Shown: one piece after another, positions 6,134-53,822 of the stretch
Numbering within the stretch: the stretch's first letter is position 1
How the letters are laid out: each line of letters starts with the position of its first letter
Source of the DNA: Rhodanobacter glycinis
GTDB taxonomy: Bacteria; Pseudomonadota; Gammaproteobacteria; Xanthomonadales; Rhodanobacteraceae
Direction: 5' to 3'
DNA length: 64,000 nucleotides
Assembly: GCF_900114325.1 (NCBI RefSeq)
Contig: NZ_FOSR01000004.1
Coordinates: 159,550 to 223,549, forward strand
Notes under the pieces: model-generated
The model's database searches: none
What the model was told of the DNA's origin: nothing
The model's input: the letters and a program-made list of their open reading frames with translations, nothing else
Made by a program: the position numbers and the translations under genes

Positions 6134-8846
<2,713 letters not shown>

Positions 8847-9228
8847 TCTCCTGGCGCGTTGATCGATGCCGGCCGCAAACCTCGTTGATCACGGCCATTC
8901 ATCGCAGCAACCTGCCGCGCATCCTTACGGCGGCGGGCGCGCTTGCGTAGCCGCGGGTTGCGCAAGGCGGTCCAGCCGCCGTGGGCGGGATGCAAACCCT
9001 TGCAGGAGAGCCTTCAGGCAATGAGTGACTGATCCGGGCGGTATCCATCGCCTCATCCGATCCGATCTCGGGAAGCCTTCAAATGGACGTCTATCCGGCT
9101 CTCCGGAAGGCTTCCGCGGCACTGGCAGCACTTCGACAACCTCTCCCATGCGCCCGCGCATGTTCGCCGGACTGGACGAACGCGCCGCCAAGCGGCAGGC
9201 TGTAGAGCTTTCCCCGTCAGGATCGTCG
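8847..9228. other. Intergenic region upstream of glk
   Basis: 382 bp between the S53 peptidase and glucokinase. It contains a 10-bp inverted repeat (9071-9080 with 9106-9115, GGAAGCCTTC/GAAGGCTTCC) separated by 25 nt, roughly 115-160 bp ahead of the glk start. This could be a leader hairpin or an operator. A weak alternative start for glk exists at 9160. No small gene with a ribosome site is evident. Confidence 0.4.
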
Positions 9229-44243: not shown

Positions 44244-46892
44244 ATGCCGATGCCGAACATGATGACCGCGGACAGCCCCGCGCGTAGCCGCACGCCCTGG
44301 TGGTTCCGGGTCGGCGGCCAACTGCTCGAACCCTGGGTGCGCATTCGCCGCGAACCAGCCGAACCGACCAGCTTGCTGCAGGCCGGCACGCCGGTCTGCT
44401 ACGTGATCGAGCGCGACGGTTTCTCCGACATGCAAATCCTGGAGCGGGCCTGCCGCGAGGCCGGCTTGCCCAGCCCGATGCAGCCGCTGGCCGGCACGCG
44501 TCGGCGGCGCTCGGTATTCGCGCTGGCCCATCGCGACGGGCGTCTGCTCGGCCGCAATCGCCACCGTTCGCCGAACGAACCGCTGGGCCAGCTCACCCGT
44601 GCGCTGGAGGCCGATCCCGAACGCGACATCCAGATCGTGCCGGTGTCGATCTACGTGGGTCGCGCACCAACCCGCGAATCGGGCTGGTTCAGCGTGCTGT
44701 TCTCGGAGAACTGGGTGGTGGTGGGCCGCTTCCGCCGCCTGCTTGCCCTGCTGCTCAACGGTCGCGACACGGTGGTGCAATTCTCCGCGCCGGTGTCGAT
44801 GCGGGCGGTACTGAACGAAGGCGGCGACGTCCGCCCGGAACGCTTCGCGCGCAAGATCGCCCGTGTGCTGCGCACGCACTTCCGACGCATCCGTGCGGCG
44901 GTGATCGGGCCGGATCTCTCGCACAAGCGCACCGTGGTCGACGCGGTGCTCAATGCCGAACCGGTACGCGCGGCGATCGCCGCCACCGCGGCCAAGGAAA
45001 AGATCAGCCAGGCCAAGGCGTGGCGGCGTGCCCAGAAGATCATGCTGGAGATCGCCGCCGACTATTCGCACCCGGTGGTGCGCTCGGCCTCGCTGCTGCT
45101 CAGCAACTTCTGGAACAAGCTGTACGACGGCATCACCATGCACCACTTCGACAAGGCCCGCGCCGCCGCGCCCGGCCACGAAGTGATCTACGTGCCCAGC
45201 CATCGCAGCCACGCCGACTACCTGCTGATGAGCTACCAACTGCACATGTCCGGCGTGGTGGTGCCGCACATCGCCGCGGGCGTGAACCTGAACCTGCCGG
45301 TGATCGGGCCGATCCTGCGCCGCGGCGGCGCGTTCTTCCTGCGCCGCACGTTCAAGGGCAACGCGCTGTACTCGGTGATCTTCAACGAATACGTGGCGCA
45401 GCTGATCGACCGCGGCGTGCCGATGGAATACTTCATCGAAGGCGGCCGCTCGCGCACCGGGCGCCTGCTGGCCCCGCGCGCCGGCATGCTGGTGATGACG
45501 GTGCGCGCCTTCCTGCGTGCGCCGCGCCGACCGGTGCTGTTCCAGCCGGTCTACATCGGCTACGAGAAGCTGATGGAGGGCAAGTCCTACGCTGGCGAAC
45601 TGTCGGGCAAGCCGAAGGAAAAGGAATCCCTGCTCGGCCTGCTCAAGGGCCTGAAGGTGCTGCGCCAGCGCTACGGTCATGTGGCACTGAATTTCGGCGA
45701 GCCGATCGAACTGAACCCGCTGCTGGATGCGATCAGTCCCGACTGGCGCAAAAGCGTCGACGATCCGGAGACCAAGCCGGAGTGGATCAACGGCGTGGTG
45801 GACAAGCTCGCCGAGCAGATCCACATCAACATCAACCGCGCCGCCGACGTCAATCCGATCAACCTGCTGGCCCTGGCGCTGCTGTCCACGCCCAAGCACG
45901 CGATGGCCGAGAACGACCTGCTCGCCCAGCTGGAGCTGATGAAGGCGTTGCTGGAAGAGCTGCCCTACTCCGACCGCATCACGCTGACCTCGCTGGCGCC
46001 AGCCGCGATCATCGCCTACGGCGAGCAGATGGGCTGGATCCGTCGCATCGCGCATCCGCTCGGCGACGTGCTCACCGCCGACGACGAGCAGGCGGTGCTG
46101 CTGAGCTATTTCCGCAACAACGTGCTGCATCTGGTGGCCACAGCCGCGTGGGTGTCGTGCTGCTTCCTCAACAACCGCCGCATGACGCGCAATTCGATCC
46201 TGCGCCTGGGCAAGATCATCTACCCGTTCATCCAGGGCGAACTGTTCCTGCCCTGGGACGAGGACGGCTTCGCCGCGCAATTGCAGGCCACCATCGACTT
46301 CTTCGTGCGCCGAGGTCTGCTCGAAACCACCAGCGACGGCCGCGTGCTCGAGCGCGGCCCGGGCCAGGACGATGCCGCGTTCCAGCTCAAGACCATCGCG
46401 CGCAGCCTGATCCAGGCGTTCGAACGCTACTACATCGCCATCGCCGCGCTGGCCAAGCACGGCCCGCACGCGATTTCCGCGGCGGAGCTGGAAAAAGCCT
46501 GCACGCTGGCCGCGCAGCGCCTCAGCCTGCTCAACGAATTGTCCGCGCCGGAGTTCTTCGACAAGGCGTTGTTCCGCGGCTTCATCCAGAAGCTGCGCGA
46601 ACGCCGCGTGGTGTGGACCGACGACGACGGCAAGCTGGATTACAACAGCGCGCTGGAAGACATGGTGCGCGACGCACGCGTGATCCTGGCGCGCGAGATG
46701 CGCCACTCGATCCTGAAGATCACCGGCGGCGACGACAAGGAAAGTCCGCGCGCCGCCGCCGTGCCGAATGATCCCGTCGCCCCCCCCGCTGCACCGGATA
46801 TTTCGCCCACAGACATCGGCGCCGAGTTGCACGAACGCCACGTGGAAAGCGAGCAACAGGAACACGCGGCCGACGCCACCGACAAGCGTTGA
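44244..46892 (+). CDS. plsB: Glycerol-3-phosphate 1-O-acyltransferase
   Basis: First acylation of sn-glycerol 3-phosphate in phospholipid synthesis, at the inner membrane. 882 aa, a little longer than E. coli PlsB (807). Acyltransferase block I is VPSHRSHADYLL (catalytic His and Asp), block II FFLRRTFKGN, block III IEGGRSRTGRLL, and block IV VLFQPVYIGYEKLMEG. The C-terminal 30 residues are a polar tail (HERHVESEQQEHAADATDKR). The start at 44244 is one of three nearby Met codons (44244, 44250, 44259). It pairs functionally with GpsA, which makes its substrate. Confidence 0.95.
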   Translation: MPMPNMMTADSPARSRTPWWFRVGGQLLEPWVRIRREPAEPTSLLQAGTPVCYVIERDGFSDMQILERACREAGLPSPMQPLAGTRRRRSVFALAHRDGRLLGRNRHRSPNEPLGQLTRALEADPERDIQIVPVSIYVGRAPTRESGWFSVLFSENWVVVGRFRRLLALLLNGRDTVVQFSAPVSMRAVLNEGGDVRPERFARKIARVLRTHFRRIRAAVIGPDLSHKRTVVDAVLNAEPVRAAIAATAAKEKISQAKAWRRAQKIMLEIAADYSHPVVRSASLLLSNFWNKLYDGITMHHFDKARAAAPGHEVIYVPSHRSHADYLLMSYQLHMSGVVVPHIAAGVNLNLPVIGPILRRGGAFFLRRTFKGNALYSVIFNEYVAQLIDRGVPMEYFIEGGRSRTGRLLAPRAGMLVMTVRAFLRAPRRPVLFQPVYIGYEKLMEGKSYAGELSGKPKEKESLLGLLKGLKVLRQRYGHVALNFGEPIELNPLLDAISPDWRKSVDDPETKPEWINGVVDKLAEQIHININRAADVNPINLLALALLSTPKHAMAENDLLAQLELMKALLEELPYSDRITLTSLAPAAIIAYGEQMGWIRRIAHPLGDVLTADDEQAVLLSYFRNNVLHLVATAAWVSCCFLNNRRMTRNSILRLGKIIYPFIQGELFLPWDEDGFAAQLQATIDFFVRRGLLETTSDGRVLERGPGQDDAAFQLKTIARSLIQAFERYYIAIAALAKHGPHAISAAELEKACTLAAQRLSLLNELSAPEFFDKALFRGFIQKLRERRVVWTDDDGKLDYNSALEDMVRDARVILAREMRHSILKITGGDDKESPRAAAVPNDPVAPPAAPDISPTDIGAELHERHVESEQQEHAADATDKR

Positions 46893-47055: not shown

Positions 47056-48006
47056 TCAGTGCGCCGTGCCCCGCCCCAGTAGCTTGCCGTTGACCACGGT
47101 GCCGTACAGCGACTGCGGCGTGTCGTGGTACTTGGCCCGCGTGGCCTGGATCGAACCGGCATAACGCGGGTCCTGCGGGCGTTCGTGGGCGTCCATGAAA
47201 TAGGCCACGTCCCACGCATCCTGATCGCTCAGAGTGTTGCCGCGACCCAACGGCATGTTCGCCTTGATGAAACCCGAGGCGTTGTTCAACTGATGCATGC
47301 CCGCGCCCCAGTTGAACGATTGCGGCCCCCACAGCGGCGGGAACACCACGTGTCCGGCCACTTGCTGGCCCTGGCCGTCGTCGCCGTGACAGAACGCGCA
47401 ATCGCGCTTGAACACCGTCTCGCCGCGTGCGTAGTCAGGCGCCTGCGCGGGCTTGGGCAGTTTCGGATAGCCCCGCCCCGGCAAGGCCTTGCCCACCGGC
47501 GCGCCTTCCGACAACCAGTAGGCATAGCTTTCCAGCGCCACCAGCACCGGATCGCCGCCCGGCGGCGCCTTGCCATTCATGCTGAAGCGGAAGCAGCCTT
47601 GCAGCCGCTCGGCGAAGGTGTTCACGTGGTGGTTCTTGCTGCGATAGGCCGGATACATCGGCCACGCGCCCCACAGCGGCGCGGCATTCGCCAGCCTGCC
47701 CGCGTCGAGATGACAGTTGGCGCAGCTGAGGTGGTTGCCCACATACGCGGCGGCGTATTTGTCCGGCTGCAGGAAAATCTGCCGCCCCAGCGCCACTTCC
47801 TTGCCAAAGTCGTTGTCGGGGATCGCGTTGTCCGCGGGCGGCACGAAGGCAGCGGGTGAAGCCTTGGCCACCGTCGTCATGGCATGTGCCGGTGGCGTGG
47901 CCGTAGCGGCCGTGGAAACGGCAGCGTGCTCGTGCTGCCCGTTGCCATGGCCGCAGCCCGCCAGCAACAAGGCCAGCCCCAGAACCGGATATCGAAGCGT
48001 GCTCAT
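47056..48006 (-). CDS. tsdA: Thiosulfate dehydrogenase (tetrathionate-forming), diheme cytochrome c
   Basis: Periplasmic enzyme that joins two thiosulfates into tetrathionate with release of two electrons. 316 aa. Two heme sites: CANCH (95-99) and CAFCH (203-207). Family-specific residues are present: Cys138 in LQGCFRFSMNG, the position of the unusual cysteine ligand of heme 1 in characterised TsdA, and KANMPLG (Met251) as heme 2 ligand. Extensive TsdA-like segments include AAPLWGAWPMYPAYR, FNWGAGMHQL and DAWDVAYFMDAHERPQDPR. Lipobox LLAGC at 14-18 predicts an anchored lipoprotein, a departure from soluble TsdA. The start at 48006 overlaps the tsdB-like gene by 4 bp; the longer frame to 48552 is antisense noise. 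Confidence 0.88.
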   Translation of the reverse strand: MSTLRYPVLGLALLLAGCGHGNGQHEHAAVSTAATATPPAHAMTTVAKASPAAFVPPADNAIPDNDFGKEVALGRQIFLQPDKYAAAYVGNHLSCANCHLDAGRLANAAPLWGAWPMYPAYRSKNHHVNTFAERLQGCFRFSMNGKAPPGGDPVLVALESYAYWLSEGAPVGKALPGRGYPKLPKPAQAPDYARGETVFKRDCAFCHGDDGQGQQVAGHVVFPPLWGPQSFNWGAGMHQLNNASGFIKANMPLGRGNTLSDQDAWDVAYFMDAHERPQDPRYAGSIQATRAKYHDTPQSLYGTVVNGKLLGRGTAH

Positions 48007-48686
48007 GGCTGCTGTGCTCCTGCTGGCGTCGCGGCCGGTTGCGCGGCATACCATGCGCTGACCGCCGCGATGTCCGACTCGCTCAATTTGCCGGCGACCG
48101 TCTGCATCAACTGCAGGGGATCGTTGTGCCGCGTACCCTTCTGCCACGCGTGCAACTGGTTGCTGATGTAGACGGACGATTGCCCGATCAGCGGTGGAAA
48201 GTGATCGCCCACACCCACGCCGTCCGGACCATGGCACTGCGCGCAGCCCGGCAGCCCCTTCGACCAGCGGCCGCGCGTGGCCAGCGTTTCGCCAAGCGCT
48301 TTCTGCTGCGCGTCCAGCGGCGCGGCCGGTGCCGCTGCCGGCGGTATCGGCAACCGGCTGTAGTACGCGGCCAGTGCCACGCGCTCGGCTTCGCTCAGAC
48401 CTGCCGCCACCGGTTGCATGGTGGCATTGCTGCGTGCACCACTGGCGAAGTCGTCGAGCTGCTTGTGCAGGTAGGCGGCCGGCAAGCCGGCCAGACGCGG
48501 AAAACCCGCCGCCGGCTGACCGCCACCATTGGCGTTGTGGCAGGCCGCACACGGCGCGACGCCACGGCCGTTGCCCTGTTGCGCGATGGCGGCCGCATCC
48601 GGCTTGGTGGCCGGCGGTGTGGCCGCCAGCGCGGCACCAGCCAGCAACAGGCCAACGGCCGTGGCGAGAACCGGCACCGCTCTCAT
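48003..48686 (-). CDS. tsdB: TsdB-like diheme cytochrome c (c4 type)
   Basis: 227-aa periplasmic diheme cytochrome, the likely electron acceptor of TsdA. Signal peptide MRAVPVLATAVGLLLAGAAL, cleaved near LAA-TPP. Heme sites CAACH (46-50) and CAQCH (148-152); distal methionines fit Met90 (SNATMQPVA) and Met194 (LQLMQTVAGKLS). The two halves are homologous, as in cytochrome c4. Position directly upstream of tsdA with a 4-bp overlap matches the tsdBA arrangement known in other thiosulfate oxidisers. The start at 48686 gives the signal peptide and overlaps the preceding gene by 4 bp. The c4-like fold is clear; the TsdB name rests on context. Confidence 0.82.
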   Translation of the reverse strand: MRAVPVLATAVGLLLAGAALAATPPATKPDAAAIAQQGNGRGVAPCAACHNANGGGQPAAGFPRLAGLPAAYLHKQLDDFASGARSNATMQPVAAGLSEAERVALAAYYSRLPIPPAAAPAAPLDAQQKALGETLATRGRWSKGLPGCAQCHGPDGVGVGDHFPPLIGQSSVYISNQLHAWQKGTRHNDPLQLMQTVAGKLSESDIAAVSAWYAAQPAATPAGAQQP

Positions 48687-49630
48687 GGCTGCGGCGGCTG
48701 GAAGCCGTACTTGTGATACACCGCCTGCGCCGCCGGCGACTGCATGAAGGCGAAGAAGTCCTTCGCCGCCTGCGGATGCGGTGCCGCCTTCATGCGCGCA
48801 GCGGTATAGGTGGCGGTGGCGTTCTGTGCCGCCGGAATCGCGATGGTCTCCACCGGGTGATGCAGGATCTGCTGCTGGAAATACGCCTCGGTCGACCACA
48901 CCGGCGCCGCATCGGACTCGCCCTGCAGCACGCGCAGCGGCGACTGCCGATGGTGGATGTGGGTGAGGAAGGTGCTGCCATCCTTCACCTTGGTCACCAT
49001 CACGGCGTGGTCCAGCGCCTCACCACCGGCCTTGCGGTAACTCACCTCGATCTGTTTGGCGATGCCTTCCCACGCCGGGTTCGGCATGCTGACACGCACG
49101 TCCGGACGCGCCAGATCCTTCAAGCCTTCGATGTGCTTGGGATTGCCCTTGGCCACCAGGATCGCCAGCGGATTGCGCGCGTAGTCGGCAGTGGCGGCAA
49201 ACCAGTGATGCTCTTTCTGCCGTGCCTCGATGGCGCCCTTGCCGGCGGTGTAGATGTCCGGCTTCAGCGCGATACGCAGGTTGCCCATCACCAGCGAACC
49301 GGTCTCGATCTGCTTGGCCAGGATGCCCGGCGGCAGCGTTTCCACGTAGATGCGCTGGTATTTCGGATAGGCCTTCTTGAAGGCCGCCATCAGGTCATGC
49401 ACCACCATGAACTGGTTGCCGGCGAAGAACACCGTGAGCTGCGGGTCGACCACGTCGCCATGCAAGTCGGCGATGGCGTCCACCGGCGGCACGCTGAAGT
49501 GCTCGCCACCGGCCGGCGGCGGATTCCACGGCGGCAGGAAATCGGTCTGGCTGGCGAACGCGCCGGTGCAGGCCAGCGCCAGTGCGCCGGCCAGCAGTGC
49601 GCGAGTCCAGCGGGCAGGATGCAAGCTCAT
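48683..49630 (-). CDS. Periplasmic oxyanion-type substrate-binding protein
   Basis: 315-aa secreted binding protein of the periplasmic-binding-protein-like II fold (ModA/PstS-like group). Signal peptide (MSLHPARWTRALLAGALALA, cleavage near AFA-SQT). Segments: LTVFFAGNQFMVVHDLMAAF opens the mature fold, LARPDVRVSMPNPAWEGIA is the typical ligand-loop segment, and KDFFAFMQSPAAQAVYHKYGF is the family C-terminus. No ABC permease or ATPase gene is nearby. It overlaps the downstream cytochrome gene by 4 bp, so it is part of the tsd operon. A sulfur-oxyanion ligand is the simplest guess, unproven. Confidence 0.85.
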   Translation of the reverse strand: MSLHPARWTRALLAGALALACTGAFASQTDFLPPWNPPPAGGEHFSVPPVDAIADLHGDVVDPQLTVFFAGNQFMVVHDLMAAFKKAYPKYQRIYVETLPPGILAKQIETGSLVMGNLRIALKPDIYTAGKGAIEARQKEHHWFAATADYARNPLAILVAKGNPKHIEGLKDLARPDVRVSMPNPAWEGIAKQIEVSYRKAGGEALDHAVMVTKVKDGSTFLTHIHHRQSPLRVLQGESDAAPVWSTEAYFQQQILHHPVETIAIPAAQNATATYTAARMKAAPHPQAAKDFFAFMQSPAAQAVYHKYGFQPPQP

Positions 49631-49640
49631 CGCGGCCTCC

Positions 49641-50177
49641 TTACAGCGGCATCAGGGCATAGCCCTGCTGCTGCAGTTCGGTGATCGTGGTCAGTGCCGA
49701 CAGCGCCACTTCGGCATCCTTCGCCACCCAGGCGTTCTGGTAGTGGTGCTCGGCCACCGCCTGCCCGCACACCGCCACCGTGATGCCGGCCTTGTGCAGC
49801 TGCGCGATCACCGGCAGGTTGGGATTGTCCACGCCGAACTGTGCGTGATAGTGCGCGTTGTCCAGCACCAGCGCGGTGGCCGGGCCATAAGCAATGGCCA
49901 CGAACTTCAGATGATCGAGCGGCACACCCGCCGAGACGTACAGGTTGACCGTGCGCGCCACGCGCTCCAGCGCGGGATTCACCTGGTCGGGCTTGGCGCT
50001 GGCCTTGGTCATGCCGAACACCACCTTGTAGGTGGCCGTCTTGCTGGGCTGGAACGCGGCGTGCGGCAGCGGATGGAAGTTGCCGGAGGCGGTGATCGCC
50101 TGGGACGGTGCAGCAGCAGCGCCAACGCTCAACAGCAGGCCGAGCGTGCCGGCGAGGATCAGATGGGAACGATTCAT
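49641..50177 (-). CDS. Exported DsrE-family-like protein
   Basis: 178-aa protein with a signal peptide ([20 protein letters not shown], cleavage near AAA-PSQ) and a DsrE/DsrF-like domain. Landmarks: [20 protein letters not shown] opens the fold, [17 protein letters not shown] (91-107), and the single cysteine Cys137 in [11 protein letters not shown], at the position used as persulfide carrier in DsrE-type proteins. First gene of the operon, with a 10-bp gap to the binding-protein gene. GAGGAAG precedes the start at 50177. Exported DsrE-like proteins next to sulfur-oxidation genes may bind or carry sulfane sulfur; the role here is inferred. Confidence 0.8.
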
Positions 50178-50311: not shown

Positions 50312-51061
50312 ATGAGCGAACAGCAAACCACCCATTTCGGCTTCCGTGACGTCCCGGTTGGCGAGAAGCAGAAGCTGGTCGGCCAGGTCTTCACCTCGGT
50401 CGCCCGCAGCTACGACCTGATGAACGACCTGATGTCGTTCGGCACCCATCGACTGTGGAAGCGCCACTTCGTTGCCACCAGCGGCGTGCGTCGCGGCGAC
50501 CGCGTGCTCGACCTGGCCGGCGGCACCGGCGACATCGCCGCGCTGCTCAAACCCGTCGTGGGCACGGACGGCGAAGTGGTGGTGGGCGACATCAACGCCG
50601 CCATGCTCGGCGTGGGGCGTGACCGCATGACCGACCGCGGCCTGGTCAGCGGCCTGCGCTGGGCCCAGCTCAACGCCGAATGCCTGCCCTTCCCCGACGC
50701 CAGTTTCGACGCCGTGACCATGGCCTTCGGCCTGCGCAACGTCACCGACAAGGACAAGGCGCTGGCCGATATCTGCCGCGTGCTCAAGCCCGGCGGCCGC
50801 CTGCTGGTGCTGGAGTTTTCCAAGGTGCAGAGCGAGCTGTTCGGCAAGCTCTACGACTTCCACTCGTTCAAGGTGCTGCCCAAGCTCGGCCAGCTGTTCG
50901 CCGGCGACGCCGACAGCTACCAGTACCTGGCCGAATCCATCCGCAAGCACCCGGACCAGCAAACGCTGAAAGGCATGATGGAACGCGCCGGCTTTGGCCG
51001 GGTGGAAGTGCGCAACCTGACCAACGGCGTCGTGGCGATCCATAGGGCCTACAAGCTCTAA
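50312..51061 (+). CDS. ubiE: Ubiquinone/menaquinone C-methyltransferase
   Basis: SAM-dependent methyltransferase that methylates the ring carbon in ubiquinone synthesis (and menaquinone if made). 249 aa. The N-terminal [20 protein letters not shown] is the UbiE signature, motif I is [12 protein letters not shown], and [16 protein letters not shown] carries the second PROSITE-type signature. The C-terminus ends [11 protein letters not shown]. The start at 50312 is standard; the longer frame to 50108 overlaps the tsd-operon promoter. Divergent from the DsrE gene with 134 bp between, leaving room for two promoters. Confidence 0.97.
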
Positions 51062-51168
51062 GCCATCAGGCACCGGCCTGCGCCCATCCGGGGATGGACG
51101 TGGCCGACACGCCCGTGCGGCGTGGAACAACCCCGATCCCAAGATACACAGCAGGAAACAAAAACCGC

Positions 51169-52617
51169 ATGTTCGAGAACGCGTTCAACAACATGGACCG
51201 CGTCATGCGGAACGACGAAGGCCTGGCTTCCGAGCTGGACTATGCCGAACAGACCTCGTGGCTGCTGTTCCTGAAGTACCTCGACGACATGGAGAAGGAG
51301 TGGGAAGACGAGGCCGGACTGGAAGGCCGCGGCTACACCCCCATCCTGGACGAGCCCTATCGCTGGCAAGCCTGGGCCGCACCAAAGGCGACCGACGGCA
51401 CGCCCGACCTCAACGCCCGCACCGGCAAGGACCTGATCGACTTCGTCAACGGCGAGCTGTTCCCCTACCTGCAGACCTTCCGCGACACCGCGGATGATCC
51501 GGACACGCTGGAATACAAGATCGGCGAGATCTTCGCCGAGATCGCCAACCGCTTCCGCTCCGGCTACTCGCTGCGCGACGCACTGGAGATCGTCGACGGC
51601 CTCAACTTCGGCAGCCAGCAGGCCAAGTACGAGCTGTCCGACCTGTACGAGACGCGCATCAAGCGCATGGGCAACGCCGGCCGCAACGGCGGCGAGTACT
51701 ACACGCCGCGGCCGCTGATCCGCGCCATGATCAAAGTGGTGAAGCCCGAGATCGGCGAAACCATCTACGACGGCGCCTGCGGCTCGGCAGGCTTCCTGTG
51801 CGAGGCCTGGAGCAGCCTGCGGCGTGACGACCTGTCCGCCGCCGACTGGGACACCTTGCAGCGCAAGACGTTTTACGGCCAGGAGAAGAAATCGCTGGCC
51901 TACGTGCTCGGCGTGATGAACCTGATCCTGCACGGCATCGACGCGCCCAATATCCGCCACGCCAACACGCTCAGCGAAAACGTGATGGACATCCAGCAGA
52001 AGGATCGTCACGACATCGTGCTGGCCAACCCGCCGTTCGGCGGCGGCGAGCGCAAGGAAGTGCAGCAGAACTTCCCGATCAAGTCCGGCGAAACCGCCTA
52101 CCTGTTCCTGCAGCACTTCATCCGCAAGCTCAAGGCCGGCGGGCGCGGCGCCGTGGTGATCAAGAACACCTTCCTCAGCAACACCGACAACGCCAGCGTC
52201 GCCCTGCGCAAGGAGCTGCTGGAAAGCTGCAACCTGCACACCGTGCTCGACTGCCCCAGCGGCACCTTCCAGGGCGCGGGCGTGAAGACCGTGGTGCTGT
52301 TCTTCGACAAGGGCGCGCCGACAAGAAAGGTCTGGTACTACCAGCTCGATCCGGGCCGCAGCCTGGGTAAGACCAATCCGATCAACGACGACGATCTGGC
52401 CGAGTTCGTGGCCTTGCAGGCGAGTAAGGCCGACAGCGACAAGAGCTGGTCGGTAGCGGTCGCCGATGTAGACAAGGCGACGTGGGATTTGTCGGTGAAA
52501 AATCCGAACGCGCCGCAAGCGGAGGCGTTGCGCAGTCCTGAGCAGATCATTGCGGACATGCTGGCTCGGGATGAAGGGACGGCGCAGATTCTGGAAGAGA
52601 TTCGGGGGATGTTGTGA
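51169..52617 (+). CDS. hsdM: Type I restriction-modification methyltransferase subunit HsdM
   Basis: 482-aa adenine-N6 methyltransferase that joins HsdS to form the modification enzyme and HsdR to make the restriction complex. N-terminal HsdM_N domain (MFENAFNNMDRVMRND...LKYLDDME), then the SAM loop DGACGSAGFL (201-210) and the catalytic NPPF (287-290). A long helical C-terminus ends ILEEIRGML. The start at 51169 follows AGGA; the frame to 51094 has no support. hsdS overlaps it by 4 bp. hsdR is 4.2 kb away, beyond unrelated genes. Confidence 0.96.
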   Translation: MFENAFNNMDRVMRNDEGLASELDYAEQTSWLLFLKYLDDMEKEWEDEAGLEGRGYTPILDEPYRWQAWAAPKATDGTPDLNARTGKDLIDFVNGELFPYLQTFRDTADDPDTLEYKIGEIFAEIANRFRSGYSLRDALEIVDGLNFGSQQAKYELSDLYETRIKRMGNAGRNGGEYYTPRPLIRAMIKVVKPEIGETIYDGACGSAGFLCEAWSSLRRDDLSAADWDTLQRKTFYGQEKKSLAYVLGVMNLILHGIDAPNIRHANTLSENVMDIQQKDRHDIVLANPPFGGGERKEVQQNFPIKSGETAYLFLQHFIRKLKAGGRGAVVIKNTFLSNTDNASVALRKELLESCNLHTVLDCPSGTFQGAGVKTVVLFFDKGAPTRKVWYYQLDPGRSLGKTNPINDDDLAEFVALQASKADSDKSWSVAVADVDKATWDLSVKNPNAPQAEALRSPEQIIADMLARDEGTAQILEEIRGML

Positions 52618-53822
52618 GCGTTGACTGGGATCGTGTATCCATTTCCTCCATAGCGGAAGTTGCCAGAGGCGGATCGCCACGCCCAATCAAGAATTTCATC
52701 ACCGATAGCCCCGATGGAGTGAGCTGGATCAAGATCGGTGATACGGAAAAGGGTGGACGATACATAGATTCCACCAGCGAGAAAATTCGGCGCGAAGGCA
52801 TAAAAGGGTCACGATGGGTGGAAGAAGGCGACTTTCTTCTTTCAAACTCAATGAGCTTTGGACGTCCGTATATTCTCAGAATATCCGGGTGCATTCACGA
52901 TGGTTGGTTGGTCCTGAAGCCAGATTATTCTCGCCTTGACCAGGCTTTCCTGTACTACGTCCTAAGCTCCCCGAATACGTTTCGGCAGTTCGATAGTCTT
53001 GCGGCGGGATCGACCGTTCGGAATCTTAATATCGATCTCGTGTCCGGCGTGATGATCCCACTTCCGCCGCTGGACGAGCAGAAGCGGATCGTTGCGGTGC
53101 TCGATCAGGCCTTCGCCGCCCTCGACCGCGCCCGCGCCCATGTCGAGGCCAATCTGGCGGATGCGGAGGGGCTGCTGGAGAATGCGTTGGACGAAGTTTT
53201 TCGAGACCTTGCGTCAAGCAGCCCCGTGGTTAGGCTCGAAGATGCGGTCCACCCCGAGTGCAAACTTTCTTACGGCATCGTTCAACCTGGCGATCTTGTT
53301 CAAGGCGGCCTGCCGATTGTTCGACCCGTTGACCTGAAACAACGGGTCATAACCTTGGCCGGTTTGAAGTCAATCGCGCCGGAGTTGGCGGACGGCTACG
53401 CGCGAACAAAACTCTTCGGCGGCGAGCTTCTGCTGTGTGTTCGTGGAAGCACCGGCGAGATATCCATAGCCGCACCGGAACTGGCCGGAGGAAACGTCAC
53501 TCGCGGCATCGTTCCGATTCGGTTTGAGATGGACAAGGTGCTTCCCGAGTTCGCGTATTTCCAGTTTCTGTCTCGGTACGCGCGTGATCAGATTGCTGCG
53601 AAGACATACGGCGCCGCGCTCATGCAGATCAACATCAAAGATCTCCGGCAACTCAACTTTGTTTTGCCGCATATTTCCCTGCAAAGCGATATCGTCGTTC
53701 GAGCAGAGGAGCTGTATGAGCGCGCAAAGAAATTGAAGGCTGCGTATGTCCAAAAGCTCGCCGACCTCGCCAACCTCCGCCAATCCCTCCTGCAAAAAGC
53801 CTTCTCCGGAGAGCTGACATGA
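52614..53822 (+). CDS. hsdS: Type I restriction-modification specificity subunit HsdS
   Basis: 402-aa specificity subunit with two target-recognition domains, each about 150 aa, separated by conserved helical regions: the central LPPLDEQKRIVAVLDQAF and a C-terminal end with RQSLLQKAFSGELT, the hallmark of HsdS. GTG start at 52614 in the overlap GTGA with hsdM. The first recognition domain is visibly AT-richer than hsdM, and parts of the second are too, consistent with domain exchange. The recognised DNA site cannot be inferred. A GTAG repeat begins 32 bp downstream. Confidence 0.95.
   Translation: MSVDWDRVSISSIAEVARGGSPRPIKNFITDSPDGVSWIKIGDTEKGGRYIDSTSEKIRREGIKGSRWVEEGDFLLSNSMSFGRPYILRISGCIHDGWLVLKPDYSRLDQAFLYYVLSSPNTFRQFDSLAAGSTVRNLNIDLVSGVMIPLPPLDEQKRIVAVLDQAFAALDRARAHVEANLADAEGLLENALDEVFRDLASSSPVVRLEDAVHPECKLSYGIVQPGDLVQGGLPIVRPVDLKQRVITLAGLKSIAPELADGYARTKLFGGELLLCVRGSTGEISIAAPELAGGNVTRGIVPIRFEMDKVLPEFAYFQFLSRYARDQIAAKTYGAALMQINIKDLRQLNFVLPHISLQSDIVVRAEELYERAKKLKAAYVQKLADLANLRQSLLQKAFSGELT

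Follow-up and report, generated by a model that had tools for sequence, protein, structure and literature searches.

The window analyzed here, a 64,000-nucleotide stretch of Rhodanobacter glycinis (contig NZ_FOSR01000004.1, positions 159,550 to 223,549), carries four adjoining genes on its reverse strand that place a DsrE-like protein and a substrate-binding protein (SBP) next to a thiosulfate enzyme. These are a dsrE-like gene (49641..50177, 178 aa), an SBP gene (48683..49630, 315 aa), a tsdB-like gene for a c4-type diheme cytochrome (48003..48686, 227 aa), and tsdA, for a diheme thiosulfate dehydrogenase/tetrathionate reductase (47056..48006, 316 aa). A first, sequence-only reading of this DNA described four leftward genes with a 10-bp gap and two 4-bp overlaps, and the coordinates confirm it: spacing from dsrE to tsdA is +10, -4, and -4 bp, with the tsdB start overlapping the SBP stop by 4 bp (ATGA) and the tsdA start overlapping the tsdB stop by another 4 bp. 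The gene identities it proposed also stand, as Pfam and solved-structure searches agree on all four—i.e. DsrE scores 39.2 bits (cut-off 22.7; 9e-10), SBP_bac_11 150.7 bits (cut-off 25), and the SoxA/TsdA domain 35.3 bits (cut-off 27), while the TsdB-like protein has two CxxCH motifs and matches the solved protein 5lo9.

The DsrE-like protein has an apparent Sec signal peptide, judged by eye, and its sole cysteine beyond residue 28 is C137 (codon 49769-49767), a column occupied by Cys in 32 of 32 and in 110 of 110 aligned DsrE rows (near-duplicates included). Its structure model (pLDDT 90.4) has five PDB matches with E up to 0.001, all of them DsrE-type folds; it resembles MTH1491, ST0148, and the Sulfolobus solfataricus DsrE/DsrF-like proteins, and more weakly DsrEFH. 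With a Pfam score over cut-off, the conserved Cys, and this fold, the protein belongs to the DsrE/DsrF superfamily, in agreement with the exported, Cys137-bearing DsrE-like protein first described. It is not part of a dsr/tus/hdr cluster (a DsrEFH/TusBCD or Hdr-linked relay), its partners being the SBP and two cytochromes and the operon's flanks plsB and ubiE. A useful comparison is DsrE3A of Metallosphaera cuprina, a cytoplasmic protein. DsrE3A has two reactive cysteines, TusA as its partner, and a cluster with an Hdr-like complex, whereas the protein found here is apparently exported, has one Cys, and is partnered with TsdA. Common to both are the DsrE family and a reactive Cys, and M. cuprina DsrE3A takes thiosulfate as Cys-S-thiosulfonate from tetrathionate and hands it over to TusA (PMC4175335; the papers cited here and below are represented by excerpts).

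An apparent signal peptide, again judged by eye, is also present on the SBP. Its structure model (pLDDT 88.0) matches ModA, PEB3, AcfC, and sulfate-binding proteins, and 60 positions are invariant in 37 aligned rows, including N72, P183-N184-P185, H226-H227-R228, and W245. The SBP shares its fold and a weak sequence similarity with ModA, sulfate-binding protein/CysP, and PEB3/AcfC, but it falls below the models of the ModA/CysP/Sbp transport receptors (ModA 33.5 bits, cut-off 62.5; CysP 32 bits, cut-off 308). As first noticed, it has no ABC partner nearby: no ABC-type ATPase was detected in the window by a motif test that required Walker A and LSGG together in an open frame >150 aa.

The window TsdA matches the TsdA half of 5lo9 (E 1.8e-89) as well as solved thiosulfate dehydrogenases, and TsdB matches the N-terminal half of the same entry (E 3.5e-42) and cytochrome c4 6q2u (E 3.5e-31). 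We take 5lo9, whose PDB listing name is "Cytochrome C", to be the Marichromatium TsdBA fusion. All 12 TsdA rows of alignment A3 and all 14 of A8 keep C95/C98/H99, C138, C203/C206/H207, N250, and M251, while K248 is present in 11 of 12; K248, N250, and M251 lie near heme 2. By analogy with characterized proteins (PMC5146829), C138 (codon 47595-47593) is the predicted heme 1 ligand, and the Cys138 ligand position and heme 2 Met named in the sequence-only reading are both upheld by the 12 aligned rows. Judged by its two CxxCH motifs, heme 1 Cys, and heme 2 Met, the protein has the features of the TsdA family, and its neighbor, a c4-type diheme cytochrome adjoining TsdA, has those of TsdB. A lipobox-like LAGC, a pattern that recurs in 33 of 36 relatives, predicts that TsdA is a lipoprotein. 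Compared with TsdA/TsdBA of Allochromatium, Marichromatium, and Campylobacter, the Cys ligand, two CxxCH, conserved Met, and a TsdB as in 5lo9 are common features; the predicted lipoprotein nature and the DsrE-like and SBP genes set the window apart. The window genome holds a single TsdA (two further matches are weak) and a single DsrE of the operon type; neither SoxB over its cut-off nor DoxD at E 1e-5 is found in it, and it has no TSD-SBP-DoxDA cluster of the kind discussed below.

How closely the accessory genes follow tsdA was evaluated in a sample of 200 genomes from the order, with strong TsdA defined as >400 bits. The 11 strong copies, in 10 genomes, are all of the window's family; every one has a DsrE-like neighbor, and 9 have an SBP neighbor. 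The two that lack the SBP are arranged as TsdB-TsdA-DsrE, and their DsrE has diverged (33% identity). No DsrE hit was obtained in the genomes that hold the six weaker TsdA copies (127-235 bits), the surroundings of three of which (L047-L049) were inspected. DsrE hits fall into two classes: nine of at least 195 bits, all in tsd operons, and 50 at 37-105 bits, 48 of which are not beside a strong TsdA. Homologs lying mostly away from tsdA, which had been named at the outset as the outcome that would speak against a link, are seen for these distant DsrE hits but neither for the SBP nor for close DsrE.

The SBP alignment was also scanned against one genome each of 84,980 species, which returned 384 relatives, and we counted the best 80 loci. 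These are mainly from Rhodanobacteraceae and Bacteroidota. Of the 80, 75 have an adjacent TsdA, on the same strand and no more than 2.5 kb away, and 76 an adjacent DsrE; for scale, 46 of the 369 class-sample genomes contain any TsdA at E 1e-15. The expected co-occurrence with tsdA is therefore found. Two layouts dominate, DsrE-SBP-c4-TsdA with 36 loci, a recurrence of the window's gene order that is beyond chance, and TsdA-DsrE-SBP with 35. The others are rare: one each of SBP-c4-TsdA (at a contig end), TsdA-SBP (TsdA at the contig start), DsrE-TsdA-SBP, SBP-TsdA-DsrE, and DsrE-SBP-c4 (L083, contig end), and two each of DsrE-SBP and SBP alone. In four loci without adjacent TsdA (L120, L137, L142, and L150), the genome carries TsdA elsewhere (E ≤1.9e-90), the L137 copy with one internal stop. 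Flanks were long enough to be grouped in 34 Rhodanobacteraceae-type loci; their upstream DNA forms 7 groups and their downstream DNA 11, which indicates a four-gene unit kept amid changing surroundings.

Judged by record title, the TsdA-DsrE-SBP layout belongs to Bacteroidota in 34 of 35 loci (the remaining title reads just "bacterium"), including Hymenobacter, Spirosoma, Chitinophaga, Sphingobacterium, Mucilaginibacter, Niabella, and Flavihumibacter. All heme residues checked are kept in 12 of 12 aligned Bacteroidota TsdA rows. The DsrE gene between tsdA and sbp was missed by the first DsrE profile and found by inspecting the gap; its product is divergent (13-21% identity, alignment A7) yet homologous (hhalign 99.8%, E 3.8e-28), and 2 of 3 tested are over the Pfam cut-off, the third scoring 20.4 against 22.7.

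ABC-type oxyanion receptors have the same fold as the SBP, which could conceivably hand thiosulfate or tetrathionate to an importer encoded elsewhere, to be assimilated or to enter sulfur oxidation in the cytoplasm. Two YeeE/YedE-family genes near the SBP on one Paraburkholderia plasmid would suit such a role. However, in 69 of the 80 loci the same motif test detects no ABC-type ATPase up to 4 kb from the SBP, 10 of the 11 loci with one are from Sphingobacterium, with the gene ~0.8 kb downstream, and the conserved tie of the SBP is to TsdA or DoxDA. We regard uptake as rather improbable. A scan for YeiH-type exporters gave hits in 2 of 95 loci only, and we claim no link.

The tie to DoxDA, which is unrelated to TsdA but catalyzes the same reaction, emerges from genomes in which the partner enzyme differs. 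In three class-sample genomes, DsrE-SBP is followed by a fused DoxD-DoxA, the thiosulfate:quinone oxidoreductase (L054 and L056 by Pfam, L057 by position). A plasmid protein search with the window SBP matched 22 records, of which 15 were inspected, with families located by profile; the seven others (H7, H10, H11, H13, H14, H19, and H21) look like near-copies by identity. Of these 15 stretches, 12 contain TsdA, up to ~3 kb from the SBP, and 3, from acetic acid bacteria, contain DoxDA. The neighbor of the SBP is DsrE in five and a ~262-residue protein in ten, the latter annotated mostly as "transcriptional initiation protein Tat" or "hypothetical protein", or without an entry. The NCBIfam model NF052225 "thiosulfate dehydrogenase" (cut-off 300) gives this protein 394.8 bits in L156 and 356.9 bits in L164, a chromosomal locus with DoxDA, and the remaining members were found by a profile built from five of the ~262-residue proteins. 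By these profile matches, it is a member of the Acidithiobacillus-type thiosulfate dehydrogenase (TSD) family. TSD-SBP is joined with DoxDA in L154, L164, L203, and L208, and with TsdA in L155, L156, L158, L159, L204, L205, and L207, so all four combinations occur—i.e. DsrE or TSD, with TsdA or DoxDA. The window SBP likewise has the neighbors that mark its family, a DsrE/TSD-type Cys protein and an enzyme that converts thiosulfate to tetrathionate. TSD is rare: of 180 genomes sampled across a phylum, 1 has it.

A tree of 102 SBP rows was made by a quick search, and several long branches in it carry a flag; on this tree, the DoxDA label must change 3 times, with starred branches forcing at least 2 of these changes, and the DoxDA-bearing acetic acid bacteria nest among TSD-SBP-TsdA plasmids. 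Several copies are on plasmids, some predicted conjugative, and flanks vary among genomes, as would be expected if a mobile island merely happened to keep these genes together. However, Pseudomonadota and Bacteroidota both show the association, in differing gene orders and with repeated partner exchange, and we consider such neutral hitch-hiking very improbable.

The same partner exchange bears on whether the SBP and DsrE-like protein help the heme enzyme mature, for which their apparent single transcription unit with tsdBA in the window could be cited. DoxDA also has the pair, yet neither a CxxCH (L054, L056, and L057) nor a heme domain (L054 and L056) was found in it. TsdA and DoxDA have the substrate in common but no evident cofactor, which makes a role in cofactor maturation unlikely, and we give it hardly any weight.

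Sensing would place both proteins outside the reaction, detecting thiosulfate or tetrathionate and signaling to a regulator. LysR-type genes like that of L116 (L116:6637-7536) are present in 30 of 95 SBP loci searched, nearly all from Bacteroidota, and H. denitrificans relays the sulfur signal through a membrane protein that is distinct from its oxidizing enzymes (PMC11582611). Against this, the L116 LysR query has no hit in L074-L111, and no regulator is found among the four operon genes and the two genes that flank them in the window, plsB (44244-46892) and ubiE (50327-51061), both on the forward strand. Sensing also leaves the replacement of the DsrE-like protein by a thiosulfate dehydrogenase family member unexplained, and we find it quite improbable.

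Clusters described as Tat/tsd-sbp-doxDA are known from the Acidithiobacillus, Sulfobacillus, and Gluconobacter literature. In Acidithiobacillus ferrooxidans, AFE_0042 is an identified TSD beside sbp and doxDA (PMC6335251, PMC2754497, PMC2621215), and we compared this cluster (AFE_0042-0043-0044; second copy AFE_0047-0050) with the window by its description. In both, an exported protein, a periplasmic SBP, and a thiosulfate-oxidizing enzyme stand side by side, with TSD a remote relative of the DsrE-like protein; the window differs in having the short DsrE type without a hit to the TSD model, and TsdB-TsdA instead of DoxDA. Gluconobacter has a homologous SBP, and the organization similar to the A. 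ferrooxidans cluster is noted in PMC2621215. The tie of the two accessory parts to the TsdA system is supported, but the claim that they are new needs changing, as an SBP beside a thiosulfate enzyme was already known from Acidithiobacillus (PMC6335251, PMC2621215). A tsd locus with DsrE and SBP, which the sequence-only reading knew of nowhere, is not described among the matches listed in our search of the open-licence literature.

The exchange of DsrE for TSD is accompanied by a remote likeness between the two. The window DsrE-like protein has no NCBIfam hit at E 0.1 and lies outside the TSD family as defined by NF052225. When alignments of 11 TSD and 110 DsrE rows (near-duplicates included) are compared with hhalign, the probability is 94.7-95% (E 6e-8 to 4e-8) over 107-108 columns, with a score of 55-56 compared with 11.3 for a reversed control and a maximum of 30.3 (mean 14.2) for 60 column shuffles; controls with SBP, TsdA, and c4 alignments score at most 22.7. 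The conserved Cys of TSD (11 of 11 rows) aligns on DsrE C137 (110 of 110 rows), and a similar LQxxG[YF] stretch ends both families (L154 excepted). A smaller comparison, of 14 against 5 sequences, had given a weak result, with a probability of 24%. The present alignments make a convincing case that the DsrE-like protein and TSD are remote relatives, a link of which we saw no statement in the papers searched.

Given these observations, the DsrE-like protein and SBP are very probably a dedicated accessory pair of thiosulfate/tetrathionate chemistry. From the observed operon, gene families, co-conservation, partner interchange, and DsrE-TSD profile homology, we further infer a ligand, an adduct, a direction, and physical contact, in a mechanism that we offer tentatively, as its chance in full falls a little short of even: a periplasmic module coupled to TsdB-TsdA that captures thiosulfate or tetrathionate and carries it, as a Cys S-thiosulfonate, toward or away from an electron outlet that can be exchanged. 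In the periplasm, the SBP would bind thiosulfate or tetrathionate, as its fold suggests. C137 of the DsrE-like protein would then hold one thiosulfate unit as Cys-S-thiosulfonate, which we propose because the Cys is invariant, the protein is homologous to TSD, and M. cuprina DsrE3A has this chemistry. The next step would be an exchange of that unit with the Cys138-heme of TsdA, in keeping with the Cys-S-thiosulfonate intermediate that A. vinosum TsdA forms on its own heme Cys (PMC4423706), and electrons would exit via TsdA heme 2 and TsdB toward an oxidase. The same module may, in other bacteria, feed DoxDA and the quinone pool. The carriage of sulfane sulfur originally suggested for the DsrE-like protein gives way to S-thiosulfonate, which fits better with the remote TSD homology and with DsrE3A chemistry (PMC4175335). 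Oxidation as the direction fits, by analogy, with Dyella thiooxydans as a thiosulfate oxidizer, for which the excerpts of PMC4919399 credit sulfite oxidase and rhodanese genes and not tsdA.

Several points weigh against this mechanism. M. cuprina DsrE3A reacted with tetrathionate and not with thiosulfate in the excerpts of PMC4175335, and the carrier may thus act in reverse or on the product. The window TsdA has Asn just before the heme-2 Met; the tetrathionate-reducing TsdA of C. jejuni is Asn-Met, and that of A. vinosum Lys-Met (PMC5146829), so the window enzyme may work in either direction, oxidation or reduction. Most TsdA enzymes lack the pair: outside the window's family, the SBP is absent from all 40 class-level TsdA loci that were inspected (40 of 53 TsdA places were fetched, some on short contigs), which argues that the pair is not required for TsdA catalysis as such. 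It is found at 3 of 8 strong DoxD loci, one other being on a 5.5-kb contig, and the 80 SBP loci, the best of 384 relatives, are clumped in two lineages. The accessory module serves a subset of TsdA/DoxDA systems.

The absence from those 40 loci also counts against protection or repair, in which the pair would clear by-products (sulfite and polythionates) or reset over-oxidized or thiosulfonated TsdA/DoxDA, and which predicts wider presence in TsdA-bearing genomes. The chemistry for it exists, as the thiosulfonated Cys of A. vinosum TsdA decays to an S-sulfane form (PMC4423706) and M. cuprina DsrE3A can split thiosulfonate off TusA (PMC4175335); overall, we judge this role improbable.

A bolder version of the carrier mechanism, in our view possible but doubtful, would make the DsrE-like protein a thiosulfate dehydrogenase in its own right, belonging to a TSD superfamily and working in a three-part machine. 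In it, a DsrE-fold Cys protein (DsrE-like or TSD) would perform the sulfur chemistry, the oxyanion would come from the SBP, and the electrons would go to a redox protein that can be swapped (TsdA-TsdB or DoxDA, and in distant relatives perhaps Sox). If true, this would name the missing electron acceptor of Acidithiobacillus TSD. More generally, the interchange of partners leads us to expect that TSD and DsrE-like proteins alike act together with the SBP and either DoxDA or TsdA. Occurring as it does in very different bacteria, the pair would suggest that they share a helper module for a common step in sulfur cycling; it would also indicate that many Bacteroidota (34 loci by title) have a thiosulfate metabolism of the TsdA type, and provide a genome marker for it.

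Some further features were noted around the SBP. A candidate SBP-TsdB fusion, one 569-aa ORF (L037:6080-7789), was rejected as an apparent frame change near the SBP end, since the conserved SBP C-terminus is in another frame and TsdB keeps a signal-like start; alignment A2, from which the SBP scan started, includes this ORF among its rows, and the two patterns of the scan are SBP motifs. A second SBP gene follows the first on Hymenobacter and Komagataeibacter plasmids (L160:5863-6636 and L206:6922-7692 by Pfam, L209:4422-5138 by gene table), and on the Spirosoma linguale plasmid pSLIN02 (L202:5899-6821) the SBP lies in two frames with no gene listed. Distant SBPs (34-36% identity) are convergent to soxA and soxB, genes of a further system for thiosulfate oxidation and both over the NCBIfam cut-off, in L051 (62-3545/3567-4520) and L052 (2773-6289/6326-7279), and another distant homolog (L050) adjoins pilus and cell-wall genes; such distant neighborhoods (34-38% identity; three of four inspected), sox included, are suggestive only. 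On two Bradyrhizobium plasmids (L158:7778-9148 and L205:7185-8630), a SoxB-like metallophosphatase sits between TSD-SBP and tsdBA, scoring 339 and 326 bits, under the SoxB cut-off of 550.

Near TsdA, a short DsrE-like gene lies ~1.7-1.9 kb downstream, near 8400-8970, in three further members of the class, L192 (Pfam), L194, and L195 (51-72 bits), with weaker DsrE hits in L198 and L169. A Desulfarculaceae metagenome-assembled genome (L147:507-7864) has a row that starts with a TsdA-like gene and two long cytochrome c-motif proteins (one below the Pfam cut-off) and continues with DsrE, a four-CxxCH TsdA-like gene, and SBP. In the window itself, ubiE is followed by the type I restriction-modification genes hsdM and hsdS (51094-53822).

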